64,000 nt of DNA, from assembly GCA_964036045.1 (NCBI GenBank), contig OZ038382.1, positions 4,467,789-4,531,788 on the forward strand, given 5' to 3'. The notes beneath the pieces are model-generated. The model did not search any database. It saw only the letters and a program-made list of their open reading frames with translations, and was not told where the DNA came from. This DNA comes from Eutreptiella sp. 'Long Island Sound 2002'. Its lineage: Eukaryota > Euglenozoa > Euglenophyceae > Eutreptiales > Eutreptiaceae. Both the position numbers and the translations under genes were made by a program. How positions within the stretch are numbered: position 1 is the first letter of the stretch; each line of letters starts with the position of its first letter. Positions 3,479 to 42,231 of the stretch are shown in pieces.

Positions 3479-4194
3479 TCATGTTGCGTGAAAAAAAACG
3501 CTAGCAGAGCTACTTTTCTTTGCGTCCTCTTTACCAACCTTCACGTTCCCTTGCACAGGACCCGCATAACTGGCATAATCTTTAACATATTCACTGTAAT
3601 AGTTGCAAAACCCCAGAAAACCACGCAACGTGGTGATGGTGCCTGGCAAGGGCCACCGCTGTAACGCCATCAACTTCCCTGGCTGTAGTTCCCGTATTCA
3701 CCGTAAAAGCCGATGCCCACAAAATTCTATGCGTTTAGCAAACAAGGTAGCTTTGTCCCAATCAGTAACCAAACAATGTTCCCCAAGGTTTTGCAGTACA
3801 CGACGAACATCCCTATCATGCTGAGCAATCACCTCAGACTCATTCATTCCCGACTGCATACACGTACCCCCAACCAGGTCATCTATATCCTGGTCACAAA
3901 CATCACGGACGCCATGGAGTACCCATTCTATCATGCGTCGCCATATTGCCAGACTATTCTTCAACCCCTGTGGCATGCAACGCGGCTGTAAAACTCCTAT
4001 TGGGGTAGCCTCGGCTGCCAATGACCGACTATCCCTATGCAAGGGTATCTGGCTCAAAGCATCCTTCAGATCAATGACACTCCATATGTGGCGGCGCTCC
4101 TGGCGTTCCAGAATATCGCTGATGTGCGGAAGTTTATAGGCATCAACGACAGTTTGTTCGTTCAACCCCCGGTAATCAATAACCACCACCGCAG
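3479..4194 (-). pseudogene. Ty3/gypsy reverse transcriptase fragment
   Basis: Visible motifs are VVIDYRGLN, a DLKDALSQIPLHRDSR segment, MPQGLKN, the palm box DQDIDDLVGG (DIDD in place of the usual YVDD/YIDD), and, after the TGA at 3698-3700, PGKLMALQRWPLPGTITTL and RGFLGFCNYYSEYV of the RT/RNase H connection. The match to the element D protein is continuous across the stop. It is a pseudogene: the front of RT is missing and two in-frame stops are present. Confidence 0.75.
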
Positions 4195-7121
4195 CCAGCG
4201 GACCCCAGCCAGGAGTGGCGGGGCACCGCACCCAGGACCCTCGGCCAGGAGTGGCGAGGGACCACCCACCACCAACACCAGCGGGCCCCCAGCCAGGAGT
4301 GGCGGGGGACCGCACCCGGGGCCCTCAGCGGGGAGTGGCGAGGGAACGCCCACCCAGAACCCACAGCTGGCAGCGAGGACCACGCCCTGCAAACCGGCGG
4401 ACCTCAGCCAGGAGTGGCGAAGGCCCGACCCCCACCAACACCAGAGGACCCCGGCCAGGGGTGGCGGGAAGCCACACCCAAGACCCTCATGCAGGAGTGG
4501 CGGGGGACCACCCGCCGCCACCGGCGGCGAACCGCATCCAGGGGAGGCGGGGACACGCACACAAGCAACTCGGCCAGGAATGGCGAGAAGCCGCCCCCCC
4601 ACCACCACTGCCCCACCCCACCCAGGAGAGACGGGAAACCCATCACCACAAACCACACAGCGAAAGGGGCGGCGGGACGAAAGGGGCCCAGGGGAAACGC
4701 AGGCGTGGGACCCAACCTCAGGGGTTTTGTGGGCCCCCCCGGTGACCGTATCGGCCCCACCTGAGCACATGCAATAAGGTCGGATACGCCCGGGACCGTT
4801 GGTCAGCGGCCCGCGGTGGCACCGGCCTGGGGGGGTGACCAATGGGCCTGACCAAGAGCACTCCCCACGGCACGTACTGCGGTTCAGGCCAAGCGAGGGG
4901 CTGCGGGTAGGGCACACCGTCCATCGGGGCATGCAAGAGACACGCCTGTCCCGCAAGGACTCCCCTGCGACCCACAGTGTACCCGACCCCGGTGTGGGGA
5001 ACGGCTGGAGTACCTGGCTCGGGAGCAGGTCCATTTGTACCGAGCGGGTACAAATGGACGGCCCGTACAACAGAGTTACACCCTGACTGGGAGTGCAAGC
5101 ATCGGCCCCCCGGAGGGGAAACACCAGGGGAAGGGACCCAAGCCAGCGTCAAGGACCCTCCCCCCCCCCCCAACCCACCACAGCCGGGTAGGCCCGGGCA
5201 AGGCGCCAGGAGAACACCGCCCCAAACGACGCGGCAAAGGGAAAGAGGGGGGAGGGCACGCAAAGGGGGCGGCGGGGGGACACACCACCACCAACAAACC
5301 CCAGCCAGGGGAAACACACCCGGACCCCACAGCCGGGGCGGGGGAGGGGCCACGACACACGGCCCCCGCACCCACACAGAGCCGCCAAACCAAGCCCATA
5401 AAGGCGAGGACAGGCACCCAAACGCACCACCAACACACTGCACACACGCCCACGCGCGCACACAACACACACCGCCACAGTCGCCACCGACACAAGCCCC
5501 ACAAACGCACGCCAGACACCAAAGTGCGAACACCGCCCGCACCACAAACGCACACAACACACGAAAACCCAAAGAACAAGAACCCAGCAACCCCCGCCAG
5601 GGGAGCTGCAGGGCTGCCAGAAACACCGCTAGGACACAAGGGTAGACCCACCAAGCCCTCAGCCAGGAGTGGCGAGCGCCCACACCCAGTAGCACCCAAC
5701 GACCAACCACGCCCACACCCACGCCAGAAACAGCGACACCCACACCAGCACCGCCACCAACACCCCAACCACAACCACCCGAACCAAACGCCACAACACC
5801 CTCACCAGGGGAAACACCTGGAGCTAACAGAGACACCGTCCGCAGCACCAGCAACCCCAGCACCCAGTACAAAACCTAAGACACCCTCGCCAACATCAAA
5901 CCAACACAAGAAGCCACCCAACACGGACCAACGACCACACCCGCGCCACCCACCAACCCGCACCCAGAACCGCCACCGCCAGCATCCACACCATCGGGAC
6001 ACACCAACACCACCAACAATCATGCGAGCACAACACCCTCACCATCACAATCGCCGGCGGTGCCGCCGTACTCACCATTGCCTACGATACCTGCGCACAC
6101 CAGCACCGGGTGCAACACCTACATCACCCAAGCCAACGGCATCAACAACACCATCGCCAGCACCACCCCACCATCAGCGTCGCCACCGGCAACCTCCGGC
6201 ACCAGAGGCAACCAACGCCACCACAACCGGTAAACGAACAAACCACCAACCCTCAGCCAGAGGAGGCGAGGGCACACGCCCAGAACCATCAACAACAACA
6301 CCCTCGCCACCAAAGCAACCACAGGGCGCCATCCACCACGCAGTCACCAGCGGCACCCACACCATCGGCGCCACCAACACCACCCTCACCCACGACATCA
6401 CCCGGGGCATCGTCTGCACCACCCTCACCAACGGCATCACCAGCGGCCCACACCACCTACTGCTCACCCTCCGTCAGAGCCAAAGGAACCAGCCAGCGCC
6501 CACCCCCAAACACAAGCCACTGACCACCAGCACGCAGACCCACACCAACCACCAGCAGCATCAGCAACATCAGGGACGTCGTAAACCGTAGCAACGCCCG
6601 CAATGACCTCACCACCGGCATCACCGACAGCACCACCGACAGTGAGACCTCAGCGACAGCAACCCGGAGCGTCAACGACAGCCACCACCCGGTACAACGC
6701 CTACAACACCATCGGCATCAACGACACCAAGGCAGGCCAGGGCCAACACACCGGCCAGCAACGCCCACGGGAACCTCCGCCAGGAGTGGCGGGGTCCCAC
6801 CCCCACCGACAGAAACCACCATCCACCAGGGCATCACCTACAAGGCCCTTGCCATCGGCATCACCGGCGGCGCCAACACCCAGAGCTCCGCCGGCAGCGC
6901 CCTCACAAGCACCGCCACCAGCACCACCGACAGCGGCACCACAGAGAGACCGCCACCCACCCACAGCATCGACACCCTCGACCACAACCGGTGCAACACC
7001 TGCCACTACAGACCCAAAGACAGCCGAAGGAACTACCCCAACACCAGAGACAAAGGGCACCACCAGAACCACAAGCCAACCAACCACCAGCCACGAGTGG
7101 CACGCCCGGAACCGCCGACCA
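4195..7121 (+). mobile_element. C-rich leader of non-LTR element B, left half
   Basis: About 2.9 kb of strongly C-rich, G-poor plus strand. Open frames run through it (longest 5035-6591) but encode only Pro/Thr/His-rich low-complexity sequence with no domain, so I do not call a gene. A motif close to GCCAGGAGTGGCG recurs (around 4207, 4249, 4297, 4409, 4455, 5661, 6780, with decayed copies). The same composition and motif resume after transposon El1 at 13777, so this is one block split by an insertion. By position it precedes the ORF1-like pseudogene at 16.1-19.0 kb and may be an untranslated leader comparable to the monomer array of the giant element. Confidence 0.45.
5029..5059. other. Perfect 13-bp inverted repeat (hairpin)
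   Basis: The arms GTCCATTTGTACC (5029-5041) and GGTACAAATGGAC (5047-5059) are exact reverse complements around a 5-base loop GAGCG. The stem is AT-richer than its C-rich surroundings, which makes it stand out. It lies in an otherwise featureless part of the element B leader. Function unknown. Confidence 0.8.
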
Positions 7122-7143
7122 CCCTAGGAACCCGTTTTGCCCA
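7122..7143 (+). repeat. El1 left terminal inverted repeat
   Basis: Starts CCCTAGGAACCCGTTTTG and continues to 7143. Its reverse complement is found at 13755-13776 with a single A/T mismatch at the fifth base. The C-rich flank switches to AT-richer DNA immediately inside this repeat. Confidence 0.85.
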
Positions 7144-7149
7144 GGGAGA

Positions 7150-7246
7150 GTTGCACAGAAAATTGATGTTTGCACGCAGTTGCACTAAATTTCTGCCAGT
7201 TGCACAGAATTGCACTGCAGTTGCACAGTGCAATCCCTGTGCAATC
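7150..7246. promoter_or_regulatory. Subterminal TTGCAC cluster of El1
   Basis: Within about 100 bases of the left end there are about five TTGCAC and two GTGCAA hexamers, in both orientations, lying between the TIR and the transposase start. Clustered subterminal hexamers are known transposase-binding sites in several plant DNA transposons, so a binding or promoter role is a reasonable inference. Nothing here proves it. Confidence 0.5.
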
Positions 7247-7332
7247 GCGCTGGCGCCGCCGTCGCGACTGACGTCGTTGGTGCCGCATCTTAAATTTCAC
7301 GAGAAATTTACTAGCCATTTGCCAGATTTGCA

Positions 7333-9287
7333 ATGGTTTTGCAAGGAAATGCTATTTCCCAGTTTATTAGAACTACTTACGATAGTTTTAGCAGCGTGGA
7401 CTTGATGGATGACCTTGTGGGAGTATTTACCTCAACGGCACCGGGTACCGCCCTATTGGATCGCCTCAATGCACGCATCAATAAGCAAAAACAATACAAG
7501 AAACGCGCAAAGGACGCCATTCGGCAGGTTTACACACCTACCGAGGCTGTCCGCCTCGTTTTGGAGCTTGAAATGCCACAAAAAAGGTGATGTTTCTTGC
7601 TATGTCGCTTTTTTGCGTTATTGATGCATTGTGCACCCCCCCTTGTGGTGTGCAAGTGACCACTTGCACACTTTTGAAGCCATATCATTCTCATACATCG
7701 TCAAATGTGGTCATTCACTCCATACGAGATACCTACATACTCTAACTTGCACACTAGGACATCGTATAACACCACATTCATAAAAATAGTGCGATGATGG
7801 CAACGTTACGCTTTGTGCAAACATGTGTACAAGTAGTTTATTGCACCGTTTGCACACGGTTGCACTTGTGCAACTACTAATGTATGCCTCTCCCTTTTTA
7901 GGTACAAGAACCTTATCCGTTGGGTATCCAAGCTTCGCAATGATGGGAAGGGGCGCCTCCCCGCTAATTGGGAGCACCCCTTTCCATCGTTTAAGGCTTT
8001 CAGGATTGCTTGGCGGGAGCTTGGGAGCAAGCAAATCCTAGTCCCAAGCGATTACAATGGAAAGGTAGGTGTTTGTTGGCATCTTGATGAGTTTTTTAAG
8101 TATATCTCAACTCAAGACGATATACTTGATACAATATCATTCCCGCTTTTGGATGGGGAACGACCATATGTTTTGATCGTTCGGGGTGACGGATTCCCTT
8201 GTGGATCTCGCCCCTGGGTGCAATTGGCCTTTGGGTTTGCCAACCTTGGTCAGAAGGCGCGCACCCTAGCTTATAATTGGATCATCGATGTCGCCCTCAC
8301 AAGTGAGCACGACATCGATGCTCTACGTGCAATTTTTTCAAAGACTTTGGAGGCAATCCAAAGTATTATAAATACCGGATGGATCCTCATTCGTGAAAAA
8401 TGGTGTCGTGCCCGAGTCATGTTGGGTGGTGACTCCCCATGGCTCTGTAAAGTGCTAGGAATTTCAAGCTATTTTTGCATTGGGAGTATTGATACTTACG
8501 CGACGTGGTGCGAGGTCAAGGGAAAGTGGGAGGACCGAAAGTGGCGGCGTTCAGGCCCAAGAGTGACAAAAAAATATATAAACTTCATAAGAAGGGGTTG
8601 GATTGTACCACCGCCAAAGGATGTGTGAGTGACCCCTTGTTGCATATAGAGGAACGGTTCAAAGTTGTGGTTGTGTGCATATTGCATCTTGTTATTCGGG
8701 TTGGTGACTACCTCCCCAAATTCATTACCAAGAAGTGCAAGCACCTTCCGCCGGCCACTAGGGATCGTGTTCAAGATCGCCTCAATTGTGCCAAGACCAA
8801 AATTAGTCTCAAGGGCGATGCCTCTCCGGATGGGGAAGAGACATGGCTCTTGTTGGCAAACTGGCGTCATATTGCCAAGGCCATGAGGCTTCCAAACCAT
8901 GTCATTGATGTTGTTGTACAAATGGCCTCTTTACGTACGGCACTACAAAGTTGGGAGTTCAATTCCAACGCCCTCAGTTGTAAATCCATCGCGAAGAAGT
9001 TCAAACGAACAATTTGTCCTACCATTCGATCGCCATATTTGTTATGGCTACAATTTGATGCTCCCAGGGTTCTGAAAAATGTGCATCTGTGGGGTTGCGG
9101 TATGTTTAGCGGCGACATTGTCGAGTCGCTAAACTACCTCTTTAAGGACCATTTTTCGTGCTCTTCGGCTAGGGGAGGAGGGAAAGGCACTCCAACAGAA
9201 CGCGACACGCGCCTCGTCACGCAAGCGCTAGAAGGTCTCTTCCTCGCAAAGGAGATGCCTCGATGGCAACGTGCAAATGCTGATTAG
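7333..9287 (+). CDS. Putative DDE-type transposase of El1
   Basis: Probable exons are 7333-7586 and 7902-9287; joining them restores a frame that matches the El2 protein across the junction. The start at 7333 aligns with the El2 start (both begin M-V). In order: an alpha-helical N-terminal domain, YVLIVRGDGFPCG with the first candidate catalytic Asp, VMLGGDSPWLCKVLG with the second, GCVSDPLLHIEERF and CILHLVIRVGDYL, then LQFDAPRVLKN and DIVESLNYLFKDHF with a candidate Glu. The GDG...GGD...E order fits an RNase H-fold transposase. The frame changes once between about 8500 and 8580 (plus-one type), so this copy may be broken or misread there. The name rests on the TIR context and residue pattern, not on a search. 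Confidence 0.6.
7587..7901 (+). other. Intron 1 of El1 transposase gene, with TTGCAC repeats
   Basis: Begins GTGATG after an AG exon end and ends TTTTTAG. Removing these 315 bases joins codons into ...MPQKR-YKNLIRWV, which aligns with IPRRR-LRVLSRFI of El2 without a gap. The intron carries about nine TTGCAC or GTGCAA hexamers, especially at 7645-7665 and 7838-7875. Confidence 0.75.
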
Positions 9288-9380
9288 CTGTGTGTGTTCA
9301 TGTGCATGTCATCTAGTAACCGATTGGACCGCAATGTGTTTGGACATGTGCATGTGTGTCGTACGCCGGACGCGGAGCCT

Positions 9381-9460
9381 TTGCATGTCTTGTGCAAGTG
9401 GTGTGCAACGTGTGCAAGTGGGTTGTTGCATTGTGCAACCGCACGTTGTGCACTCTCTTC
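9381..9460. repeat. GTGCAA cluster in the spacer between El1 genes
   Basis: Several GTGCAA hexamers in about 80 bases, between the transposase stop (9287) and the start of the next gene (9498). Likely the upstream region of the second gene. Confidence 0.55.
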
Positions 9461-9497
9461 TCATATTTCTTTCCGTAGCGGTTGCGCATGGGCGACC

Positions 9498-12400
9498 ATG
9501 GATCCACAACTCCAACACCTCCAACAATTATTTCAACTCCTACAAGCAAGTGGGAACGGGAGTGGTAGTGGAGCGTCAAGTGGAGCGCCAAGTAGACCCG
9601 TACAAGCAAGTGGGAGCGGGAGTCAAGGCAGCGGGAGTCAAGCGTCGACTAGTAGTGGTTTGACAACGCCGAAGAAGCCGCATATTGATGAGCAAGCGAG
9701 CAACTCATCAGCCGAGCAAACCACCCCGCCCCGATTGCAATCCCACTTCCCATGTGAAAGCGAGTTGTTGGTGCACCATAGTTGTCACATGGACGCCCCG
9801 CTTGCCGATGATAGTTTGGAATGGCGTTGGCTTTGCGATGTAACGCCAAAATATTTGTATAGGCGCGCATTGTGTCATTGGCTCAAGAAGTGCCGGCAAG
9901 TCGACCCCTCGGGAATTATCACGTATCCGTGGCAAGGCTCCGCCTTCACCGCCACGCGGTGCAGTGATTGGAAAATCTTGAGAATTCGCCTCCGAGGCTA
10001 CGCGGAAGCATGCATGGTGCTCAGTGAGGCCGCCTTGTATGCCTTATTCATGGTGTGGCAAAAGGCTGGGTTGGGAGAGGCCATGGCAGCCAAGTGGGTC
10101 AGCGGCGGCAATCCAAGAGCCTGTGCGGGCGGCCACGGACATGGGCATGGCCCTCAGTTGTTTTTTCCACGATGTCGGAGGCATTTCGGAAGAAGTATAT
10201 GACGTTCACAACGATGGGGCATATGGTGCGTCACCCCCATCATTATTGGAGGCCGGGGCAACAATTTCAGGAGGCAATCGGCGCACCGCGAAAGCCGTCG
10301 GCGCCGTGGCACACTCCAATGCACCGCCAACAACACCGAGTCCTCTGACGTTGATGGCGCCAACGTACACCCCCGTTGAGAAGGTGTGCAACCGCTGTGC
10401 AAGGGTGTGCAAGTGCCGTCGTGCACACACTCCATGTGTCAATGATTGTAAGACGGCTGGGTAAGCGGCCAGTGGTGCAACCAGGGTGATGTTTAGCATT
10501 GATTCCTTTATTGGACATGCATCTGATGCCCCATTTACGGTCCCACACATTAATCCGTTCATTTTGGCTATGGTGTTTGTCTATGCGGAGGTGTTGTGCA
10601 ACCACACCCTTGCACACCTTGCACCTGTGCAACCGCCCTTCACAGCTCACCGCGACGGACGTGCTGACCGCCATGTTCGTTTGCGACAAGCCTGGCCCCG
10701 GTGTGATCGTGAGTGGAGTGTGGCCGCCGATCCCCATGGACGAATGGCAGCTCATCATGGATCCAAGAAAGGTGGAGGAATTTAGGAAGAAGTGGACAAA
10801 AGATATGAAGGCCGCTCTACGGGAGTTGGACGGGAGCGTGGGAAGCCCGGATCAAGGGACGAAATCGCAACCACGGATCCGGTCGGAGAAGGCCGCGCCT
10901 CACCTCCCTTCCCCAAGTGAGTTTCCATTGGGTTTTGCAACGCAGCAACAACGGGTCCGGGTGGACAAGGCCGCGCCTCACCTCCCTTCCGCAACAGAGT
11001 TTCCATTGGATTTGGCAATGAAGCTCGAGGAAACGTTTGAGAACGATAGTGAGTTGGGCAACCCCATTGTGGATAAGAGTGATTGGGCACCCCCTACGGA
11101 ACACAAGCCAATGGAGATGGAGAAGCAAGAGAAGCCCGCACCCCCCCGGCCACCGCCCGTTCCGCAAGGAGGAAGCCAAAAAGCGTCCCACGTCTCACCG
11201 AAGATGATGTTGCTCAAGGCCCATCACGCATTGAAGGAGCGTGTGGCCAAAGACACGACGAAGACCAAGAAGAAGAAAGACGGGCGTGGGGCAAACTCGA
11301 GCAAACTGAAGAGACTTGCGGTGGAATCGGATAGCAATACGACAGCCGGAAGTGAGGCAGATGAGGAGAAGCCCGCCACGAAGAAAGAGAAGGGAGATGG
11401 AGGCAAGAGCGTACAAGCGAGCGCGCCAAAGAAGAAGAAAAGTGCAAAGGCGAGCGTACCACAACCGCAAGAGGGCCCAAAACAAGATCCAAAAGAAGAG
11501 AAGAGCCCAAAAAAAGCAAGTGACCATGGCACACCGCATGCAAATGAGCCGGACGCACCCGAAAAGGCCACATCCGCCGCGGAGGTGTGACACCGTCGTG
11601 TTTACTTGCATTCCATGTTACATAGCTTGTGCAACTAGTGTGCAACCCTTGTGCAACTTATGCAAGCACTCACTTTTGCGCGGTTGCACACACTTGCACA
11701 CCGGTTGCACATCTTACCTTCGTAGGACCTCGCGAGGCAACGGCGGAAGGAGGCCGCGGACAAGCGTGCGGAGGCGTGCAAGAAGTTCCGCCTTCCGCCT
11801 GGTTGTTGTGTACGATGGTGCTTGTCTGAAGGACCGAATGGTGGCTACCGACTCTCTGTCGGCGGCAAAAGCCAATCGCAAAAAGGCGACAAGAAACCGA
11901 AGAAGGGACACGAGTTGGTCCGAATCCCACCGCAACGAGAAGATGATGAGGAGGTGGCGGCAGACGTCATGTGGTCCGTATGCGTCGTCCCGGGAAAGAC
12001 CTCATTTACAAACGAAGACGACGCGGTGCAAGCACTCAAAAAGATGAACGAGGGGCACGAGGACAAGGGCGTTGGCAAGGAGGACAATGCGGTAGTGGCG
12101 GTAGCCAATGAGGACAATGACAAAGTGGCGGAAGCCACCGAGGACAAAGAAAAAGAGACGGTGCCGGATGCCAAGGCCAAGGGTGGTGGCGACGAACCCG
12201 ATCAGGATGACATTGCCGTGTCGAGTGGGGCCGGCGAAGGCGTGATGGAGCCCAATGGTGACGGTGGCCGCGACCTGCAAACAATGGACGAAGGGGAGTC
12301 CCCAACCAAGGCCGATGAAGAAATGGTGTGTACCGACGCAAAGGAAGGCACGAAGGAAGAGGATGAACCCATGCAAGAGGGAGAGCAAGGAGAGGCAAAG

Positions 12401-12559
12401 CCCACGGAGGATGTCAATGACCAGCCCGCCACCCCAAGTGACACAAATGTGGCCGTGGCGGAAGAGGGGAAGAGCGATGAGGCACCCAAAGCGAACACGC
12501 CGAACATGGAGGGTTTGGGCGCAACGCAAAAGCTATGGAGCTCGCCACCTCCGCAATGA
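9498..12559 (+). CDS. El1 second gene: Gln/Ser-rich start, Lys-rich and acidic tracts
   Basis: The start MDPQLQHLQQLFQLLQ (9498) follows the spacer cluster. A Gly/Ser-rich linker leads to a folded-looking domain with WRWLCDVTPKYLYRRALCHW and SEAALYALFMVWQKAG. Two introns are well supported by frame: 10384-10645 (exon resumes LTATDVLTAMFVCD) and 11585-11725 (exon resumes DLARQRRKEAADKRAEACKK). The third part is rich in KKKK runs, resembling nuclear localisation signals; the last is strongly acidic and ends at a TGA (12557-12559). The frame between 10.05 and 10.38 kb is unclear: three frames each look partly coding, so there is an undetected small intron or an indel. El2 has a gene of the same position and layout. 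Function unknown; a nuclear accessory or DNA-binding partner is an inference. Confidence 0.5.
10384..10645 (+). other. Intron in El1 second gene, TTGCAC-rich
   Basis: GTGTGCAACC donor after GAGAAG, and CCTTCACAG acceptor. Both flanking codons are in phase 0. It contains about eight GTGCAA/TTGCAC hexamers concentrated at its two ends. Confidence 0.6.
11585..11725 (+). other. Second intron in El1 second gene, TTGCAC-rich
   Basis: Donor GTGTGACACC after GCGGAG, acceptor CTTCGTAG; 141 bases. Without splicing the frame stops at TGA 11588-11590; with splicing it continues in the same frame to 12557. About six TTGCAC/GTGCAA hexamers lie in the last 100 bases. Confidence 0.7.
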
Positions 12560-13153
12560 CTAGCCGACACCCTCGTTCAACCGCTACGTCATGCAAGGGG
12601 TTGGGAGACCATTGAGAGACATGGCACCCACTATCAGAGGCTCTTCGTTGGGGCCGTTAAGGCATTTCCAAGCTTTTGCAAGGAGATTGTAATTTCCGCA
12701 CGGACCTCCAAAATGGAGCCATTGGTGCAATGTATAAATAATTTTGTGCGACGACACCTCCCCCATTTGTCCTACACAAGCATTGCTCTTGTGCATGGCG
12801 CGGGGAGTGCCCCCATGAACCTTCATACTCATGGCCACGACGATTGTGCTCTCACCAGCGAATTCACCATTGGTGATTACGATGGGGGTTACCTTTTCAC
12901 GACAGGTTATTTGGGTGGGGGGGAAGTCCAGGCCCGTGCATGGGCACATCGGGGGGAGCGACTCGTATGGGGATGCTTGGTCGATGCAAGAGCCGGCGTC
13001 CTCTTCAATGCATATCATTTGCATGGACCTACGCGTTGGCGTGGGGAACGCTATGCTATTTTATGCTACACGAGTGCATCGTGGGCACGCGTGACGCCCG
13101 TGGTGCGACAAGGACTCCTTGAAATGGGGTTCCATTGTGGTGATGACATGTGA
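12560..13153 (+). CDS. Possible 2OG-Fe(II) oxygenase-like domain of El1
   Basis: This open frame follows the acidic gene in the same frame, separated only by TGA 12557-12559. The stretch before the first ATG (12713) also reads as protein (WETIERHGTHYQRLFVGAVK), so the domain may be the C-terminus of the upstream protein, interrupted by a stop or an unseen intron. The pattern NLHTHGHDDC, FTIGDYDGGYLF, then LFNAYHLHGPTRWRGERYAI and a final Thr/Ser-rich strand is like the metal- and 2OG-binding core of oxygenases (His-x-Asp, Gly-Asp-x-x-Gly-Gly, His, Arg). The usual His-x-Asp reads His-Thr-His here unless the later His-Asp-Asp is used. Oxygenases of the TET/JBP type are known to travel with KDZ transposons in fungi; a parallel is inference only. 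Confidence 0.4.
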   Translation, partial: LADTLVQPLRHARGWETIERHGTHYQRLFVGAVKAFPSFCKEIVISARTSKMEPLVQCINNFVRRHLPHLSYTSIALVHGAGSAPMNLHTHGHDDCALTSEFTIGDYDGGYLFTTGYLGGGEVQARAWAHRGERLVWGCLVDARAGVLFNAYHLHGPTRWRGERYAILCYTSASWARVTPVVRQGLLEMGFHCGDDM

Positions 13154-13754
13154 TTCCAATGATGGAGGATGCGTCTTTGCTCGTATTATGTGTGTTTTGT
13201 AGTGCATTGTCCACATGTGCTCGCATTGCATGGATTCTTCTTTTTTTGTACTATGGCGCGCACCGCGCGTAGCATGGTGGTTGCACACGGTTGCACACGG
13301 TTGCACGAGTGCAACCCGTGAAATTGGGGGGTTGCACACACCAATGGGCGTAGACAAGAAGCGGTTTTAATGTGAAATATTGTGGTGTGTGATGGTAAAA
13401 AACATGGTTCACCTCTCTCTACAACCTATTCATTACAAGCAAACCGTGGAAGCACGGTCCCTTTGGTTAGGATGGCATGTCCAAGGGGTTGGTTGTGCAA
13501 GGGGGCGGTTGCACAACCGCCGCATTTGGGAATTTTGGGGGGGGGTGTTACATGGGTATGGGACACACTTTTGGGGCATGTGAGAGGTTTGGGTCATAGT
13601 ACACTAATGGAATATGCCATGGGATATTCGGTGGCACCCAAAAACCAGCAAAAAAGAGGGTGAAATGAAAGTTTGGGTTGGGTGTGCAAGGGGTGTGCAA
13701 GTGGCCTATGTCACACTTCATCACAGGGGTTGCACACTGGTGCCGCCATCTACA
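13154..13754. other. El1 3' noncoding and subterminal region
   Basis: No supported gene. TTGCAC/GTGCAA hexamers cluster at 13282-13340 (four in a row with spacing of about 11 bases), 13493-13517, 13683-13702 and 13728, mirroring the left subterminal cluster. Confidence 0.6.
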
Positions 13755-13776
13755 TGGGCAAAACGGGTTCCAAGGG
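13755..13776 (-). repeat. El1 right terminal inverted repeat
   Basis: Read on the minus strand it starts CCCTTGGAACCCGTTTTG, pairing with 7122-7143. Directly outside, at 13777, the C-rich leader of element B resumes. Confidence 0.85.
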
Positions 13777-16115
13777 CACCCAAGCACAGGCCGCGCCCAG
13801 CACCAACACCAACAACACCCACGCCATCGGACCACCACGAGACACGCCAACCACCAGGTATCACCTATGACACTCTCACCATCGACAACACCAGCGTCGC
13901 TAACACCCACGGCACTATCCACACCACCGCCAACCCCACCAACGACGTGCCAAGGTGCCGTCACCTACAACACCCCTACCATCACCACCACGACCCCGGC
14001 ACAGAAAAACACCTACGCCCCCACTGTCGGTGTCAGTAAAGACGCCAGAAGGGCTGGCGAACACACGCCACCAGCGCCACCCACCGGGCCCCCAGCCAGG
14101 GGTAGCAGCAGCAACAGCACACACTAAACCCACCAACATCAACGCCAGCGGCACCACAGGGCAACACACCGCCTACCTAAAACACCCTCACCATTTGCAT
14201 CACCGCCCACCACATCCACATCACCCGGAGCATCGTCAACAACCACCCCAGGCAGCACAAACAACCACAACAACACCATCACATCCACCACCCTCACCAG
14301 CAGCGACACCAGCGGCACCCTCCGCCAGGAGTGGCGAGGAGATAACCCAACAACGAGGAGCCGCACCCAGCGTCCCGGGAAAGCTCATCATCGGAGCATC
14401 ACCACCGGCACCAACCCCCAACACGCCACCATCACTGTCACCAACGCCACCGACGCCTGACACAACAACCACACGGCCCGCACCAACGGCATCAGCCGAA
14501 CAGACACCACCTGCACCAACCTCCCCGGCGGCATAACCCGGTTAACCACCTGCGACCGCAAACCGCAGGCACTAAAAACCAGGACATCGCCGACAACACT
14601 CCCGGCCAACACCCGCACCGCCCTCAACAACACCCCCGAAAGCAGCACCGTCGACCGATAGGCACATCACCCTCACAAGCCACCTGGATACGGATCCCCC
14701 ATCCCACCCCCCGAAAAACAACAGCGGCATCGCCTACACCCCCCACCATCTGCACAACCAGCAACACCATCACCAGCACCAGCCGAAACACAGAAGACGG
14801 AAGCCTCACCAACAACCGACACCCCCACTACCACTGTCACCTGCGCCACCACCACCAGTCACGCCACCCACCGTCGGCGCCACCCACCAACGACGCCAAC
14901 GCCGCACCCTAAACCACACCTACACCCAAAACCTGCAGCAACGCCCGCGGAAACCACACCAGCGACATCACCCTCCACCAGAAGCGGCCACCCAACGCCG
15001 ACAGGGCCAGAAGACGATGATCAGCACCAGCAGGAAAGCCAGCCCTTAGCGCCCACAATGGCCCAAAGACCTCCCGCACCCGGACCCACACCCAGAAGCA
15101 GCACCTACGCCGACCCCCCATCAGTGTCACCAACACCCGAGAAGACATCAACCTCGAAGAACTAGTGACCACATCACAGCCGCCACCGCACCCACGCCGT
15201 CAGCATCACTACCAGAGCACCCCGCCGGGCCGTCATTGGCACTGCTGCCCATGGCACCACCCACACTCACCAGCGCCACCACCACCCCGCGCAAGGCCAG
15301 GAGCATCGCCAACGGCCTATACGAATGTCGGCACCACCAACACCACCATCACCGGACGGGGTCTACCCAGAGACCAAGAACAGCTCCCCCACCATGAAAC
15401 AGTACACCACCCGCGACACCCCACCATCGCCAACACCACCCTTACCACCACAGCACCTACCACACCTCCACCGCCGGCAGAGACATCGGCCACACCACTT
15501 GTCATGTACAGCACCCTCGCCACCACGGCCACGTCCGGCCCACAAAGGTTACGCCCACTATGGCCAGAGACAACACCCTCACCATCGACGCCACCGGCAA
15601 CACCACATACGCCCCATGCGTCCCAGGCTCACCAACCATCACCCTCACCATCAGTGTCCACCACACCACCTGAGGCACCAACGCCACGGGACGACGATAG
15701 CGACAACAGTGACAGGCTGACCCACCAACTAATCAGCATCAACTAGCCCTGCACCAACCTCATCTACACTAACGCCCGTACCACCCTCACGAACGGCATC
15801 GCCAGCGGCACAATCATCCACTCCAACACCCACACCAACCTCACCGCCAACATCACCACCACCCCCCAAGGGTCAGGGCTCGCGGGGAACGGAACAGCAG
15901 AGCGAGCACGCCACCACCCGCGCGTCTCGCCCACCCTACCGTACACCATTCCGCAACACCGCCCCCCCGCTTCCCCCGACAGGACGTGTGCTGCAGCCCA
16001 CTGCTGGGACGACGACTACAACGTCCTCCCGGCCATTCGACACCTACTGGCAGCCACGGCCCCGCGCCCACAAGACCACCAGCAACCCACGGAACCGCCG
16101 GAGCTCGACCACCCC
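13777..16115 (+). mobile_element. C-rich leader of element B, right half
   Basis: The C-rich Pro/Thr/His-coding composition of 4195-7121 resumes directly outside the El1 right TIR, including the GCCAGGAGTGGCG-like motif (14087, 14323). No domain is visible in any frame. It leads into the ORF1-like pseudogene that starts at about 16.1 kb. Confidence 0.4.
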
Positions 16116-18976
16116 ATGCCACCACGCTCCATATCCCCCGCGTCCGCCGCAGACCAGGACGCGGAGCACCAGCGAGAGGAGCCCGAGCCCGACAGCGCCG
16201 CCACGCCCCCAACCCCCCCCCCCCCCCCCAAGGACATCTACGCCACACTAGCCGGCACCCTGGCCCCCATGGACGCCGAGCAGTACTACCAGTTCATCCA
16301 ACGAGACCTCCCGGAGGACCACGCGACCCTCCAGGAGTGAAACAGGAGAAGAGGAACGACAACGAGTGGGGCACGGAGGAAGACCTTCTCTTGGAAGACA
16401 CCTGGAAAGGCACCATGGGGGCCTTCCTGGAAGCAGCAGCCGAAACCTACCCCCGTCCGCCCGGGGACACCAGGCACGGCCTCCACGCCCTCCTAGCGTT
16501 CCACAGCTGGAAACACCGCCACACCATCACCCTCCACCCCCTCGACCACAATCCACACTGATGGGAACCTGAAGACGACGCCACCGCCGCTATCACCGTA
16601 CAGCAAAGCCCCGAGAACCCGGGAGAGTACCACATCACCTGGAACGATCCGGCATCCCACCCCCCCGCCTCCCCCACCCTCCCAGATGTCTTCGCCACCA
16701 TCAGCGCAGAACTGCAGGAGGCGAAAGCCCCACAACAACCGGACGAAGAGATGCCCCAAGCACCATCCCCACCAACCACACAGGAAAGCCCCCCGCACAG
16801 AGCCCCTCACCCACCCCATCACCACAATGGAGCTCCCCCCACAGCACCGCACAGCCCCCGGACCGCAACGGGTTCCGGAACCTGCCACGGGAATGGGCGG
16901 TCCACAACGGCACACTCCGATGGGACGAAATCACACCGGGGCTCAAGGCCAACCGCCTCCACTCGATCACCGAACCCACCACCACCTGGGCACTACCGAC
17001 GGACCGCCACCACCTCCTCCTCACCGTCCAAGGGGATGCCACAATCACACTAACGGAGGGAGACCCCATAACAGCAGCCCCCACCCACGCCGTCCACGTA
17101 CCCCCGCAAGCAACGTCGGCACCTATGACGGTACATCCAGGCCCCACCCCATGGCAAGCCATCGTCATCACCTACCCCACCCCCAAACGACCACACACAC
17201 ACCTGGCAGCAACGGTGGGAGGACATCCGGGAGGACCTCCTCCAAGAACACCTAGGGCTCACGCGCTCCCACCACACCCTCCACCCGGTACGAGGAGTAG
17301 GGCAAGCACCAAACGGCATACACACCCCGGGAGTATGGGCGTACGCCACACCCATAAACCCACAAGCAGCAGAGGATATCAGGACCGCGCTGTCCATCCA
17401 GCAAGCCCAGACAGAGACCCAGCACCGCAACACCCAACGAGGCTACAGCATTTGGTGGGCATATCAAGACCACGACACCCTCACCCCACAACCAGGGCCC
17501 CCCCCTCTGGACACCAACACAACCGCCCTCCTCCAAGCCGCAGCAGCGGCAGCCACACAGGTAGAAGCCCCGGAAACCTGGAGCCCGCAATACCTGCTCG
17601 AAACCAAAGTGTCGCCCCACGGGAAGGCCCAAGAAAAGCCCCCATCGCCGAAGCCACTCCACCCCCCACTCAAGCTGGACGCGGAGGAGCACACCCCCCA
17701 CGACGAATGGGCAACCCACTACATCATCCCCCACACCACCACCCGCAAGACCGACGCCGCAAAGATCACCGTCACCCGCCACCTCCCGCACACCACACAG
17801 GTGTGTGAGCTGACGGCCCCCGACGTCCTTGTCACCCGTTGCCGACACGACGAGCAATACACCATACAGGCGGAGGGGGCCGCCGCGACCACCCTGTACA
17901 CATGGGCAACACGGGGGGACCTCCCAGACCCCACCCTCCACCACGCCCCCTCCTGGCCCACCCCCTTCCACACAGCAGACCGCCCCAACAAGAAGCCCAA
18001 ACACACAGGCATGCACAGCCCCGCCCAGGAGGCCCAGCACCGACACGATGCAAGGCGCAAGGCCCGCACCCTCCACGGAGACCAGACCATCCCCGGCATC
18101 AGCGCCCCCCCCGCCAGAGTGTCAGATGCCACCCGCAACCGCACGATCACAGGCATCATCACGGACTGCCTGAACCCAGCGGCGTCGCGGGCAGACGCAG
18201 TGTGGATCAGCGAAGGGCGCTCCCACACACGGGCGGTGGCGCGCCTCAACAACATCCAACCCCACAAACTCCAGCGCGTCGTCAGACCCTTCGCCGTACA
18301 CATCACCCCGTACGGCATCGACCACCCCCGGTGTGAGCACCATGACCCGCCCTGCTCCACCCCATGCACCTCGCCCATGCGCAGACCGCTCCAGGCCCCC
18401 ACCATCACGGGCAACATGTACCTGGGCACCGTACCGGGAGACCCGGGCATATACATCCTCCCCAACAGGTCCAGGGAACACGCCATCCCCCTCCACGGAG
18501 TGGAGTCCCTCGCCCTGGGACCGCCCCCACCAAAACACCAACAGCAGCACATTCCGGGGGACAAACGGACGCAGGCACCAGACGGGGGAAAGAAGGCCCA
18601 CCAGCGCGCCCTAGCCCACATCACCGTCCACCCCACAGCCCAGCTGACTTCGACAGGGAGCGCCACATCGTCCTGGAGGGGCAAGCCCACCACATCATCA
18701 CCGCCGCCCTATACACCCTCGCCGCCCACGAACGCCACTGGGACCCCAAAGCCATCCCAGCGATGCCCCCACCACCGCAAGGCCTCAACGATCCCGTCAG
18801 CCCCTTCCACATCGATCAACTCCTAAGCCGCAGGGCCACCCCACACCTCCGCCCCTCCAGGATAGAACTAGCCATCGCGCCGTGGGACACCCTGGACACG
18901 CCCCCTCAACAACCCGCCATCCACATCCTCAAAGCGGACGCCCAATGGTGGGTCCTCCACTGGGCACACGGCGCTT
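16116..18976 (+). pseudogene. ORF1-like pseudogene of non-LTR element B
   Basis: Coding-like sequence runs through several frames: DIYATLAGTLAPMDAEQYYQ (near 16.25 kb), DTRHGLHALLAFHSW (16.47 kb), an in-frame TGA at 16559-16561, then LLLTVQGDATITLTEG (17.0 kb), QRWEDIREDLLQEHLGL and TPGVWAYATPINPQAAEDI (17.2-17.4 kb), and PAIHILKADAQWWVLHWAHG (18.9 kb). Three of these resemble, in order, VQGQALIHAEG, TPGVLHALHRASALTKQL and the QAIVHGHAGG...WAVWHS segment of giant-element ORF1b, so I call it an ORF1 relative. Frame changes coincide with poly-C runs (16207-16231) and an ACACAC stretch near 17195. It is cut off at 18976 where the LTR begins. Confidence 0.4.
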
Positions 18977-19281
18977 GGCATTCGGCGGAGGTAACCCATT
19001 GCTCTTGCGATTTCTCCAAAACCCGTTCTCCTTGTTTATTCAAACTCTTGTAACCTCAAACTCTCAAAACCTTTGACGTTAGTTCCCCTTAGTGGTTGCT
19101 GCTTTTCCTTGCTTGTTCTGCACTCCTTGGATCCTGCTTGTTCTGCACTCCTTGTATTTTGCGCTGTGCATGCACTGATCTACAAATCCCGCACGCAAAC
19201 CTTGCACCTTCATAAGCACCAAGCAGTTTTGATCTCCATTGTCGTTGTGCAGCACGGAGTCCCTTGCTTGCCTGAGCGGTC
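18977..19281 (-). repeat. Left LTR, distal part (interrupted by El2)
   Basis: Matches 48432-48735 of the right LTR with only a few substitutions. Together with 23921-24187 it makes one complete LTR split by El2. The first five bases present in the right copy (TGTAA) are missing, so the end of this LTR is slightly damaged or diverged at its junction with element B. Confidence 0.8.
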
Positions 19282-19321
19282 CCCATGAGACCCACCACTG
19301 GGGGTATTTTCTTCGAACGAA
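19282..19321 (+). repeat. El2 left terminal inverted repeat
   Basis: Begins CCCATGAGACCCACCACTGG and continues through GGGTATTTTCTTCGAACGAA to 19321. It pairs with 23882-23920 with a 3-base indel (CAC) and a G-run length difference. Confidence 0.9.
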
Positions 19322-19565
19322 ACATTCGAACGAAGATTATTTCTTCGAACGAAGAAAAGTTTTGAACTGTTCGAACGCCTTTGTTGTGGCCGTTTTGCTG
19401 CAAACATTGCGATAAAATGCTCAACACAGGTATTATTGAGGGTTTGGTTCTTTAGATTCAGCCTGCAACCACCTGAATGCCCTGAAAGTGTGTCTTCGAA
19501 ATGTGGTGGACTTTTCTTCGAACGAACCTTCGAATGTTCGAACGAAGATATTTTTCGAAGAAAAA
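19310..19565. repeat. TTCGAA palindrome clusters at El2 left end
   Basis: Two clusters (19310-19375 and 19494-19565) of TTCGAACGAA and TTCGAA in both orientations. They lie downstream of the second gene's stop (19655) and inside the left TIR. Possible transposase-binding or 3'-end signals. Confidence 0.65.
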
Positions 19566-19654
19566 GACGCGGCGTTTACAAATGCACATACAGGCAACAA
19601 CAGAACCGCAGAACCACCAATGTCCCTGTCCAATGTAGCTCTCTGAGTCCTGGC

Positions 19655-21647
19655 TCATGACTCACTGCCTGACACTAGTACTGCAACCTCGTCTTTCTTT
19701 TCCGTATCCTCTTTGTCTCCCTCTCCGGCATCTTCTTCTTCTTGCTTTCCACCACTCTTCGTTGGCGTCTTCTTCTTCTTCTTTGGCCTCTTTGCCTTCA
19801 CTTCCTTCTTCCTGGCACTTGGAGCTGGCACGCCACCTCCGTTGCGTAGCTTCGGGCCGCAACACAATACTCCCCCACAGAATGCCACATGGCAGAGTTG
19901 TAGTCTGCAGGGACTCAAAAGATTGTACCGGCACGGCCCAGTTTGGTCTTCTGCTGCAGGATGTCTCTGGGTATCTCCGTTCGCCAGGGGCGCCACTTCG
20001 AAATGGGCACTCCTCTCCACGCTCCCCACTGGTCCTCTTGTTGGAGGGGAAGCCATGCCCACGGCAGTGCCCCTCGGTCTGGAATCTGTGTCTCCTGGGT
20101 TTCGTCTTCATCGTCATCATCTCGGGCAGGCGGCTCCTCCTCCTCATCTCCGGAAGGCGGCTCCTCCTCCTCATCTTCTTCAGTGTCTTCGAACTCCTCA
20201 CTCTCCGAACTCTCACCCGGCAGCAGCCTTGCCTTTTTCTTCGGAGGTTCCTTAGCCGCTGGCTTCGTTCGTGGTCTCTTCTTCGGCTTCTTTGTCTTCT
20301 TGTAAGACGAGAGAATCTCGGCAAGGTTCTTTGCCCGTCGTCCGGACACAACGGGTTGTGGATCTTTGCCCCGCACACCAGCTCTGGTCGTCGACGCTTT
20401 TTTTTCGGTTGCCTCAGGGGAATGCAACGTGGAACCACCCTGGCTCAGGTTGACCCACGTTGGCATCGACTTCACGTTTCTGCGACCTTCTTCATGGTTT
20501 TGGAGTGCTCCGAGGACCGTCAGTGCTCTCGCAGGCTTCGTTAGGAGGTCGTTGAGCAGGCTGCCCGCAGTCACGGTCGTCTCAATTCCACGACTTGGTA
20601 GCTGAAGCTTCCACCTGACGCCAACGGCGCTGGTTTGCGTTGCTGCAACCTGTGGGCAGTGGAGCGGTAAAAGACTTCGAATACAATCTTCGTTCGAAGA
20701 TTCGAATGTTCGAACGAACGGTTTTTTCTTCGAACGAAGAATGTTTTTCGAAGAATAACGTAGAGGACGCATGCATGGTCAAAAGCGCTCAGCTACAAGG
20801 TAAATGCGGTACCTCCCATTCAGGAATGTCCCCTCCCATGTAGCCATGCTGCACTCCTGCTGCAACTGCTGCCTGGAGCACCGTCTGCCACTTCGCCGGT
20901 GTTGTGCTTTGCAATTGTTGTACTCCCCCGGCTTGCTGCGCTCCTTCGTCCGTCTGGGCTGCCTCACCACCACCCCGCGCCTGAGGGGTGACCTTGACGC
21001 CTTTCAAGCGGCCCGTTGATGTACATTTGCCCCACCCTGGGGGCTCTGAGGAGGGGAATCTGAGCATCACGGTACGGTCTTCACGCCAGCTCTCCACTGC
21101 GCCGTAGGCGTGCCAAACAAGCGCAAGCATACGTATTATCGGGGTTGGGGTGCCTTTTTTGTTCGGGACTGCGAAGGGGAAGGCGCGGGCGACCAGTGCA
21201 CAAGGCAAGTCCCTCTCCACAGCCACATCCTTGCAATCGGCTGATAAACACTTTCCGAAACAGCGCCCATAGGTTGACAGTGGCGTAAGCCAAGCGTACT
21301 TCGGGTCCCCGAAAATGGGCGTATGCGGATTGGGTACGGAATTCCCCTAGAATGAGGTCAAGGTAGGGGCGGGTGACTCCGGATTCAACGATTACCTGGC
21401 GGCAAGTGTCGAACTCGGCGCTGACATCGAACACTTCGTTCACCACCACGTAATCCGGATCATATTCTTCTGAATCCTGGGATCCAAAATCTAGCGGGTC
21501 ATCCAAACGGCGAGAAGGGGATGGTGACGGCTCCAAATCCGCTGAACGCTGCGGCGCTGGGTGCTGAGCCAGTTGTGTACTACTCTGGGAAGGTGTTCCT
21601 GGCGCTGATCGTGACGCTGGGGCAGAAGTTGGGTGCGCCTGAAGCAA
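19655..21647 (-). CDS. El2 second gene: domain plus Lys-rich and acidic tail
   Basis: Minus strand. The first part (21647 to about 21250) has an acidic stretch, then VFDVSAEFDTCRQVIVE and YATVNLWALFRKVF. Reading continues in another frame as AVERDLPCALVARAFPF ... GGDIPEWE to 20813, implying a small unseen intron or indel near 21250. A GT..AG intron at 20812-20650 joins WE to VAATQTSAVGVRWKLQL in frame. The next exon has KKTKKPKKRPRTK and KEPPKKKARLL basic clusters followed by long Glu/Asp runs; a final frame with KRPKKKKKTPTKSGG ends at 19655. Position, order and the basic-then-acidic tail match the El1 second gene, while sequence identity is weak. Function unknown; basic clusters suggest a nuclear protein. 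Confidence 0.5.
20650..20812 (-). other. Intron in El2 second gene, TTCGAA-rich
   Basis: Donor GTACCG after TGGGAG, acceptor CTGCCCACAG; 163 bases, both junctions phase 0. Its middle (20676-20757) is a dense run of TTCGAA and TTCGAACGAA palindromes. Confidence 0.75.
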
Positions 21648-21659
21648 CTCCTGAGCACA

Positions 21660-21780
21660 GCGCGAAAGATTCGAAAAATATCTTCGAACGAAGATTCGAA
21701 TATTCGAACGAAGAAAAATCTTCGAACGAGAGTTCGTTCGAGGATTCGAAGATTCGAACGAAGACTAAATTCGAAGGACT
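21660..21780. repeat. TTCGAA palindrome cluster between El2 genes
   Basis: About ten TTCGAA-containing motifs in 110 bases between the transposase stop (21857) and the start of the second gene (21647). It corresponds in position to the GTGCAA spacer cluster of El1 at 9381-9460. Confidence 0.75.
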
Positions 21781-21856
21781 ACAACGCATGCCTGCAGGGC
21801 TTGGAGAATAACACATACCGCCACCAGTCTTGCGACATCGGCCTTGTCTTCCTTTG

Positions 21857-23589
21857 TCAGCACCATTGAGCGGCATCGTCTATTAAGGATTCGAACAATG
21901 CAGCGTTTGGGCAAGAGACCGGGCGCGTTGTACCGTGAGCTACAATATGGGAGTGCGTGTACAAGAAGGCATGCTCCATGGTTTGTAGTAGAGCAGAGAG
22001 CTGGTAGTCATCTGTGGTGCTGCCCCCTCTGTTTGTGAACCGCACGTAGAAATCCTTTAGCTTGGCATTCGTGGTTTCAGCCAAGTCCTGGCAGTACTTC
22101 CCAAGCCCGTAAGGTGCTATCGCCTCTAGGATTCTGGGCACATCGAACTGCAAGATTATCAGATAATGAGAACGGGTATCAGGCAAACAGTGTGCGCGAA
22201 ATTCCCAGGCCGCCTGCCGACAGTCCGCTGGGAGGTCAATGTCGATGCGCTGATAGGTGCGATAGAGCCGTTGCATCACGTCCCGCAACCGCATGACAGC
22301 CTGGTTACCCAAGTGCTCGTCGGCCAACCCCAAAACATGAGCAATACCATCCCATATAAAAAACAAACGCTTGGTTTCTTGTCCATCAGGTCTCTAGGGT
22401 CTACAAGTTCCACCTAGCTGCCAACCACACAGAGCAATCTTCAGCATGTTATTGATAGCGTTGCGTGCTTCCCTGCTGGCGGACAAGCATAGCTTTTCCA
22501 AGTATTCCCCAAGCAAAGCACCAATTCGCATAAGCATATGAAGAACACAAATAATGGCATGGTGTCGTGGCACTTGAAGCAAAGGTTTTGAAGCGCAGCC
22601 ACGAGCTCCCTTGCAGATAGGGGTCTTGCCAAGTCGGGACGCATCACCCGTGCGCGTTCTGCGCCGGTGACAGCCCAGGTACCGCCTCTTGAGAGGGTTC
22701 CAAAGGCCCAAGTTGTGAACTGACGGTATATACCAATGCTCAGTAAGTCCCAAAAATTTCTTCAAAAACGGTAAATCCCCGCCCAGCATAACACTTGCCG
22801 CACAGCGTGCGCCCTTCACGATGACGGATCGCGTAGTTATGATCCGCTGCAGGACCTAGTAGCGTGCAAAGCGCAATCAAAATTTTGTTCGAAAAACATG
22901 TTCGTTCGAAGGAAAAGCTTTGTTCGAAAGTTCGAAGGTTCGAACGAAGGCAATATTCGAAGAAATAACACACCCTCAGAATCTTTTTCCAGACCCGGCG
23001 CAAATCCTTCAGATTGGAGTCCCCACAGTATGCCAGCTACAGGATAACCATCGCCACTCACAATGAAAACCAACCCATCTTTGCTGGGCTGTAGAGTTTC
23101 ATAGAGGCAAGGCTGTGTGAAAACGTAGTTGATCCAGTGATCAAACGGCCAGGAGACATTTCGGATGCCAGTTTTCTTGTCGATGTGGCCAACAAGGTGC
23201 AGGGGCTCCTTCATCCTTTTCCAAGCCAAGTTGACTCTCCGGCGGCCTGGCATTGGTTTCCCAAACCTTAGGCCAGTCTGTTTGTACCATACGTCCGCAC
23301 GCTTGGAAATAAAGCGCGATAGAACCCGAAGGCGGCGTCTAGGGATTCCCAAATCGAGAAGCAAAGCAACTGCTTCTTCAGGCGAGCATTGAGCATCGCT
23401 GTGCCACCGTAGAAGTTGATTCAATCTCTGCTTGTCAGCGCCTGGGTTGACTCGTGTGTAGATTGAGTGTAAAAGCTGGCGTCCCAGGCCGGAGGAGGTG
23501 AAAAATTGCACAAGCGTGTCCTCAACGTCCTGGCTATAAGCATTCGTCGTGCCTACCGCGTTTTTGAGCGTAATTCCAAGTTGCACCAT
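21857..23589 (-). pseudogene. Putative DDE-type transposase of El2, one in-frame TAG
   Basis: Exons 23589-22972 and 22855-21857 on the minus strand, joined in frame across a 116-base intron. It aligns with the El1 protein throughout: DVEDTLVQFFTSSGLGRQLL (N-terminus), PRRRLRVLSRFISKR, LVFIVSGDGYPVAG (first Asp), SVMLGGDLPFLKKFLGL (second Asp), GCASKPLLQVPRHH and CVLHMLMRIGALLGEYL, PDGQETKRLFFIWDGIA, YLIILQFDVPRILEAI, and DLAETTNAKLKDFYVRF with the candidate Glu. An in-frame TAG at 22394-22396 falls just before PDGQET, where El1 reads PDGEET, so it is a point change in an otherwise open frame. The protein continues past the candidate Glu with GSTTDDYQLSALLQTMEHAF. The transposase role is inferred from TIRs plus the residue pattern. 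Confidence 0.65.
22856..22971 (-). other. Intron in El2 transposase gene, TTCGAA-rich
   Basis: Donor GTGTTATT after GAGGGT, acceptor CTACTAG; 116 bases, phase 0 on both sides. Its interior (22880-22965) is nearly all TTCGAA-type palindromes. El1 has its transposase intron at a different position, so the motif tracks introns and not one ancestral site. Confidence 0.7.
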
Positions 23590-23824
23590 TGGTCAAAGAG
23601 TGACACCCTTAAAGATACAACAAATCAGTTGAAAAAACAAAAATAACCCTTCTTTCTGGCACAAATCTGCGTCTCTCTGGCACAAATCTGCGTTTTTCTG
23701 GCACAAGTCTGCGGCAATCGCCTGTCAATCTGGTGCGCGCGCTGCTGTTGCTGCGCTTTTGCGGCAATTCTCCCCAGCAGCTTGGATTCAATTGGATTTA
23801 ATTGAATTGCGATTAAAGCAAATA

Positions 23825-23893
23825 CAGTCTTCGAATTCGAATCTTCGTTCGAAGATTCGAATCTTCGTTCGAAGACTGAAGTTCGTTCGAAGA
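23825..23893. promoter_or_regulatory. Subterminal TTCGAA cluster at El2 right end
   Basis: Nested palindromes such as CGAAGATTCGAATCTTCG lie between the right TIR and the transposase start (23589). This is the expected place for promoter and transposase-binding sites. Confidence 0.6.
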
Positions 23894-23920
23894 AAATACC
23901 CCCCCAGTGGGTCTCATGGG
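23882..23920 (-). repeat. El2 right terminal inverted repeat
   Basis: On the minus strand it begins CCCATGAGACCCACTGGG and runs into TATTTTCTTCGAACGAA. The outside base at 23921 resumes the LTR. Confidence 0.9.
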
Positions 23921-42157: not shown

Positions 42158-42231
42158 TGCTATGTCGCTGTGTCTAAGAGCAGGGGGCGGGGTGCGGATG
42201 TCCCGTGGCTGGTGCGTTGGTGCGTTGGTGC

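Follow-up and report, generated by a model that had tools for sequence, protein, structure and literature searches.

A window of 64,000 nucleotides from the euglenophyte Eutreptiella sp. 'Long Island Sound 2002' (assembly GCA_964036045.1, contig OZ038382.1) carries two transposable elements, El1 and El2, which belong to one group of DNA transposons and hold a six-base-pair (6-bp) motif of their own, TTGCAC in El1 and TTCGAA in El2, in nearly all of their non-coding stretches. This distribution suggests that the elements recognise, and perhaps un-silence, themselves. Both appear to be autonomous-type families of a cut-and-paste group with CCC..GGG ends and 2-bp target site duplications (TSDs), each with a gene for a probable transposase (gene 1) and a second gene (gene 2). 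The window is part of a genome of 2,280,300,865 bases, which was scanned for further copies.

The ends of both elements are verified by their copies. The terminal inverted repeats (TIRs) of El1 are 28 bp long with 89% complementarity, and at least 40 matches to its 5' end, the window's own included, were found at 93-100% identity (query: the first 179 bases; 247 candidates). TSDs were scored in 12 El1 inserts with both ends and flanks, namely the window El1 and 11 of the 20 fetched copies; copy L029, because of its left flank, and eight copies that were cut, rearranged or one-ended were left out. All 12 start and stop at the same bases as the window El1 and are flanked by a 2-bp TSD of variable sequence (CA, TA, AG, AT, TT or AC). 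Internal deletions of 1.1-4.8 kb that spare both ends occur in 9 of the 11 scored fetched copies, and such internally deleted copies are a frequent trace of cut-and-paste elements. El2 terminates in CCCATGAGACCC on either side, as do all five fetched El2 copies, which have 2-bp TSDs (TG, TA, CA, GT and AG); the flanks of the window El2 are TG and GA, so that this copy has no TSD. Because of these ends, TSDs and deletion derivatives, it is near certain that El1 and El2 are cut-and-paste DNA transposons with TIRs.

Matches to 178 amino acids (aa) of the El2 transposase numbered 3850 candidates, the best 150 of which were all at least 90% identical; the matched 178 aa are stop-free in 144 of these 150. 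Three near-whole copies (L041-L043) are 99.4-99.6% identical among themselves and about 99% identical to the window El2. El2 is a large, recent family, since the 150 scored matches are at least 90% identical and near-identical whole copies exist, and its recent activity is likewise supported by the L041-L043 identities and the stop-free matches. Both copies in the window are broken. The frameshift in the window El1 transposase is absent from all seven aligned copies, and L022 and L038 have an open transposase exon 2 of 460 aa; the window El2 has lost part of exon 1, carries a TAG in frame and is frameshifted in gene 2, lesions of which none occurs in L041-L043, and the 329-aa open frame of El2 exon 2 is present at 108 of the best 150 places by hand count. 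Open copies of both elements occur elsewhere in the genome.

These observations bear out an earlier, sequence-only reading of the window, in which El1 and El2 were delimited, given TIRs and described as two members of one DNA-transposon group. The coordinates and TIRs agree with the 12 El1 inserts and with five of five El2 copies; the common group is upheld by homologous transposases, further copies, matching ends and TSDs; and copies expected elsewhere in the host genome were found in the El1 5'-end matches and in the best 150 of the 3850 El2 matches. Its statement that the TIRs begin alike holds for the ends themselves and is no sign of kinship taken alone: the tip CCCNNGNNACCC, common to El1 and El2, occurs 14 times in the window against 11.4 expected, and is by itself at chance level there and not significant.

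The kinship of the two elements is evident from gene 1. The El1 and El2 transposases are collinear, with 28% identity over 548 columns in a blastp comparison (E=8.6e-55) and 31% in a MAFFT alignment, and they have in common all the boxes quoted in the sequence-only reading, namely GDG, GGD, the late Glu, VMLGGD, GC.S.PLL, LH...R.G and LQFD.PR.L. The order in both proteins is GDG, GGD, then E..N...K, and the acidic residues of the joined El1 transposase are spaced D-81-D-231-E. A stretch between GDG and the intron, absent from the window El2 and present in L041, closes a gap in the alignment. The order and spacing of these residues are in agreement with the Asp-Asp-Glu (DDE) transposase proposed earlier, and gene 1 very probably uses DDE chemistry; the assignment is consistent but unproven. 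Three results count against it. An AlphaFold2 model of transposase exon 2, built from a nine-row alignment, was of low confidence (predicted local distance difference test score, pLDDT, 36; predicted template modelling score, pTM, 0.20). No scanned piece of El1 or El2 had a match over the curated cut-offs of Pfam, with which all protein-family scans were done; the lowest E-value, 0.042, below the cut-off, aligned an acidic tract with prothymosin. Finally, no credible match to the El1 and El2 proteins was found among PDB sequences.

Within the genome, the GGD-box pattern was found at no fewer than 150 forward and 150 reverse places and at none in a reversed control, and the 100 matches listed comprise, by eye, El1-like and El2-like words with few variants. 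No relative of El1 exon 2 or of the El1/El2 transposase alignment was detected in public viral contigs, nor of the alignment in public genome contigs. GGD and LH...R boxes also occur in some uncharacterised proteins of invertebrates, which are conceivable relatives. Their motif (LGGDWKF / GGDYKFL) was found at 12 loci in viral contigs, none of which encodes such a protein; the motif-bearing frames (10 open reading frames, ORFs, and two frames of 29 aa) looked unrelated, and tblastn of El1 and El2 against these loci gave a best E of 0.62.

El1 and El2 could belong, as divergent branches, to a superfamily that is already known, for example CMC/Plavaka-like elements with 2-bp TSDs or a Repbase family, in which case the group would not be new; we hold this to be a substantial, if somewhat doubtful, possibility. 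Gene 1 has a long insert between the second Asp and the Glu, which we take to be of the hAT/CMC/Transib/KDZ type. A similar long insert marks the CMCT clade (EnSpm/CACTA, Mirage, Chapaev, Transib, Plavaka, ESTA and Lanisha), and its TSDs are 2 to 5 bp long, with 2 bp in PlavakaA as in El1 and El2 (Kojima 2025, PMC12730594). According to the same paper, the second Asp and the Glu of the clade have a C(2)C and an H(3-4)H motif between them; by eye, C(2)C is missing behind the second Asp, and H(3-4)H in front of the Glu, in the El1/El2 alignment. In addition, their ends are CCC..GGG instead of CA..TG, TGT or CATCA, and the lack of a Pfam match over the cut-off also speaks against a known superfamily. 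KDZ elements (Kyakuja, Dileera and Zisupton) are excluded by their TSDs of 7-8 bp, as defined in the same paper (PMC12730594), compared with 2 bp here. The chances are about even that the superfamily has not yet been named; among the titles found in an open-access library, which covered VANDAL elements, CACTA/Ac elements and the fungal TET/JBP elements, none dealt with elements of the El1/El2 type.

The most distinctive property of the two elements is the placement of their motifs. TTGCAC occurs 44 times in 1729 nt of non-coding El1 sequence versus 8 times in 4871 nt of coding sequence, and TTCGAA 35 times in 1161 nt versus 3 times in 3433 nt of El2, with the 51-bp stretch at 12513-12563, a predicted El1 intron, counted as coding. 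When the non-coding sequences were resampled with an order-1 Markov model (200 runs), the means were 4.0 (maximum 9) for El1 and 1.7 (maximum 6) for El2. A motif cluster is present in every annotated non-coding segment longer than 100 nt (6/6 in El1, 5/5 in El2), that is, at both ends, in introns and in the intergenic stretch, and exons are mostly without the motif. Moreover, each motif belongs to its own element, as TTCGAA is absent from El1 and TTGCAC occurs only 3 times in El2. An element-specific motif concentrated in non-coding segments is the pattern looked for in self-marking. The El1 sites are spaced by about 10-11 bp and helically phased (one of 2000 randomisations was as strong), and five neighbouring pairs of the El2 10-bp unit TTCGAACGAA lie 20 bp apart.

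Arrays of this sort could be bound by the transposase, or by a TnpA-like accessory protein, for synapsis and transposition only, as in CACTA/En-Spm and Ac, and have nothing to do with silencing. Dense arrays do adjoin both TIRs in El1 and in El2, and CACTA and Ac elements commonly have motif arrays near their ends, with published papers on such subterminal repeats. We nevertheless consider a synapsis-only role unlikely, for synapsis needs no sites in the internal introns or the intergenic stretch, where the motif also occurs in all segments above the length given, and the exons are poor in the motif. Apart from the VANDALs described below, no transposon group is known to us to have motif arrays in its introns.

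The self-recognition suggested for the elements has a parallel in plants. According to a study of VANDAL21 of Arabidopsis (PMC5735166), its protein VANC21 binds YAGTATTAY, which is arrayed in the introns, the intergenic DNA and the non-coding ends of that element; binding leads to loss of methylation and silencing is undone, and other VANDALs related to VANDAL21 carry different motifs. El1 and El2 resemble the VANDAL21/VANC system in their dense element-specific motif in introns, intergenic and terminal regions, rare in exons, in the differing motifs of related elements and in a fast-evolving second gene. They differ from it in their 2-bp TSD and in a transposase with no Pfam match of the MULE type over the cut-off, and gene 2 is at most a candidate counterpart of VANC.

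The second genes of El1 and El2 are alike in place, introns and basic-then-acidic make-up. Gene 2 of El1 has basic and acidic tracts, predicted exons at about 9499-10383, 10643-11587 and 11729-12512, TTGCAC clusters in both introns and an apparent frameshift in the window copy; the two introns of El2 gene 2 (about 21670-21775 and 20676-20752) contain TTCGAA clusters. The earlier claim of a second gene with basic then acidic tracts in both elements thus stands as to position and composition; in sequence, the two genes show no BLAST similarity (best E 0.33). Binding of the motifs by the gene-2 product is, by analogy with VANC, an even bet. Several observations tell against this reading of genes and arrays: besides the lack of similarity between the second genes, the Pfam scan of gene 2 revealed no DNA-binding domain, the predicted 51-bp El1 intron is free of the motif, and the El2 sites show no 10.5-bp phasing. 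Conservation of the sites is of the same kind. Two older El1 subfamilies (L051 and L055), with 83-89% DNA identity in blastn pieces, have 47 and 46 TTGCAC sites, respectively, compared with 52 in El1. After correction for ascertainment, 35 of 44 sites are retained against 28.8 expected (p=0.03) in one subfamily and 33 against 25.6 (p=0.015) in the other, a modest excess, and copies within the burst show a similar tendency (L022, p=0.04; L029, p=0.12). Selection on the motif sites is therefore not proven. An apparently stronger signal of conservation between subfamilies (with L051 and L055, 0 of 10,000 permutations) was dropped, as its control was unfair. A 78-bp tandem duplication, 85% identical, was also observed in an exon of El1 gene 2 (window 10867-11022).

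El1 has in addition an ORF of 197 aa downstream of gene 2, perhaps its last exon, reached through a GT-AG intron (the 51-bp stretch above) of matching phase; stop letters just before the ORF are kept in five of five El1 copies with sequence there. No such ORF was seen in the ORF lists of the window El2 and L041-L043. An alignment of 21 copies (the window copy and 20 stop-free picks from the best 150 places) gives the majority sequence SYTSIALVHGAG..PMNLHTHGHDDCALTGEITIGDFDGGYLF and VLFNAYHLHGPTRWRGERYAIVCYTS, in which Asp95, Tyr152 and Gly162 never vary and His155 and Arg164 hardly do. An HxD motif, followed after 60 residues by a His and after 9 more by an Arg, resembles the pattern of 2-oxoglutarate- and iron-dependent (2OG-Fe) dioxygenases of the TET/JBP sort, and the odds that the El1 ORF encodes a TET/JBP-like enzyme are roughly equal either way. 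Kojima (2025, PMC12730594) describes TET/JBP genes in 11 lineages of fungal DNA transposons, the carriers being KDZ, Plavaka, hAT7, PHISTA, EnSpm, ESTA, IS3EU and Helitron. El1, and not El2, resembles these in a candidate dioxygenase beside the transposase, and PlavakaA also in the length of the TSD; none of the lineages in the sections consulted has variable 2-bp TSDs with CCC..GGG ends, and motif arrays are not mentioned there.

It is conceivable, though we lean somewhat away from it, that the ORF is an unrelated or chance open frame. The HxD His is retained in 16 of the 21 copies by eye, and the ORF had no Pfam match over the cut-off, PF12851 (Tet_JBP) included. Among PDB sequences its matches were spurious (a designed repeat protein, E 0.0089, with no significant stretch), and a single-sequence model was of low confidence (pLDDT 32.6). 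A scan of the genome with PF12851 gave six places, one over the cut-off and none of them the El1 ORF; hhalign of the ORF with three host Tet_JBP matches was weak (E 0.12, probability 0.5%). All this goes against a dioxygenase. Substitutions between El1 copies show no third-position excess (59/32/29 in the ORF), as in decaying copies, and give no proof of coding; codon-position bias was dropped as such a proof, the copies differing by apparently neutral decay. On the other hand, the ORF recurs at 62-100% identity among the best 150 of 3637 candidates, the conserved residues named above are those of 21 copies (20 of them chosen stop-free), and the best profile alignment, in register, sets the His and Arg of the ORF on those of the host Tet_JBP matches. 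No relative was found in public viral contigs.

Other loci were encountered in these searches. A 534-aa ORF (L076; G000 C2034:19243-19665) on a small contig, which may be viral or foreign, matches Pfam Tet_JBP with E 6.6e-18, and its C-terminal part looks glycosyltransferase-like. Two host ORFs, 91% identical (L077 on C21 and L078 on C5), have sub-threshold Tet_JBP matches with HxD, GG and H residues, and may be TET/JBP genes of the host or what remains of them. On C9:44.6-46.6 Mb the El1 ORF is present six times, with 71-73% identity and two TAG in each copy; no transposase match was found beside the one at 46.36 Mb (L053), and the cluster may have arisen by local duplication of a single old fragment.

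Taken together, we propose that gene 1 encodes a DDE transposase, with the GDG, GGD and late Glu residues, which would excise and insert the element. The fast-evolving gene 2 would encode a protein that binds the element's own 6-bp motif, and this binding would flag the element to the machinery that it encodes and protect it against silencing, the part that VANC plays in VANDALs. In the El1 lineage, the additional TET/JBP-looking domain, to judge from its residue pattern, might remove DNA marks at the arrays. The whole explanation, from transposase and motif-binding gene 2 to anti-silencing and the El1 dioxygenase, seems to us moderately probable; that anti-silencing is the purpose of motif binding is a tentative suggestion by analogy, somewhat less likely than not. 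The strongest formulation, that is, a new superfamily with a per-family motif password read by an element protein, one lineage with its own dioxygenase eraser, and thus an independent VANC-like anti-silencing system, is improbable as a whole.

Table 1. Features of El1 and El2 in the window, with gene structures as predicted
Feature	Position	Strand	Remark
El1, whole element	7122..13776	+	2-bp TSD CA at 7120-7121 / 13777-13778
El1 left TIR	7122..7149	+	
El1 left subterminal TTGCAC array, 8 sites	7151..7244	+	
El1 transposase exon 1	7333..7586	+	open frame; aligns with El2 exon 1
El1 transposase intron	7587..7901	+	GT..AG; TTGCAC cluster
El1 transposase exon 2	7902..9287	+	GDG, GGD, late Glu; frameshifted in the window copy
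El1 gene 2	9499..12512	+	splice sites inferred
El1 197-aa ORF	12560..13153	+	TET/JBP-like 2OG-Fe dioxygenase residue pattern (HxD, D-60-H, H-9-R); candidate
El1 right subterminal TTGCAC sites, 10	13281..13735	+	
El1 right TIR	13749..13776	-	
El2, whole element	19282..23920	-	genes on - strand; TSD absent in the window copy
El2 TIR, 3' end by gene orientation	19282..19321	+	
El2 gene 2, three exons	19655..21913	-	frameshifted in the window copy; splice sites inferred
El2 transposase exon 2	21857..22855	-	GGD .. Glu; one in-frame TAG in the window copy
El2 transposase intron	22856..22972	-	TTCGAA cluster
El2 transposase exon 1	22973..23589	-	GDG, followed by about 90 bp less than in L041-L043
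El2 TIR, 5' end by gene orientation	23883..23920	-	

El1 is inserted in CAC/ACC-rich low-complexity DNA, which is open in several frames (window 4025-7121 and 13777-19000). Long open frames at 31759-38454 on the minus strand, with a single frame of 2231 aa, and at 50119-55617 on the plus strand look by eye like endonuclease and reverse transcriptase of the long interspersed nuclear element (LINE) type, and at 41800-46500 a GC-rich unit of about 425 bp is repeated in a long tandem array, several frames of which are open.

The transposase adds a group that is unrecognised by the searched copy of Pfam. If the arrays do address anti-silencing, sequence-specific self-recognition of transposons would have arisen independently of the plant VANDALs, and El2, recently active and with many near-identical copies, makes this idea testable. 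Finally, if the extra domain of El1 is a TET/JBP enzyme, an address motif and an eraser would be united in one element, which would then be a naturally occurring model for the targeting of DNA demethylation.

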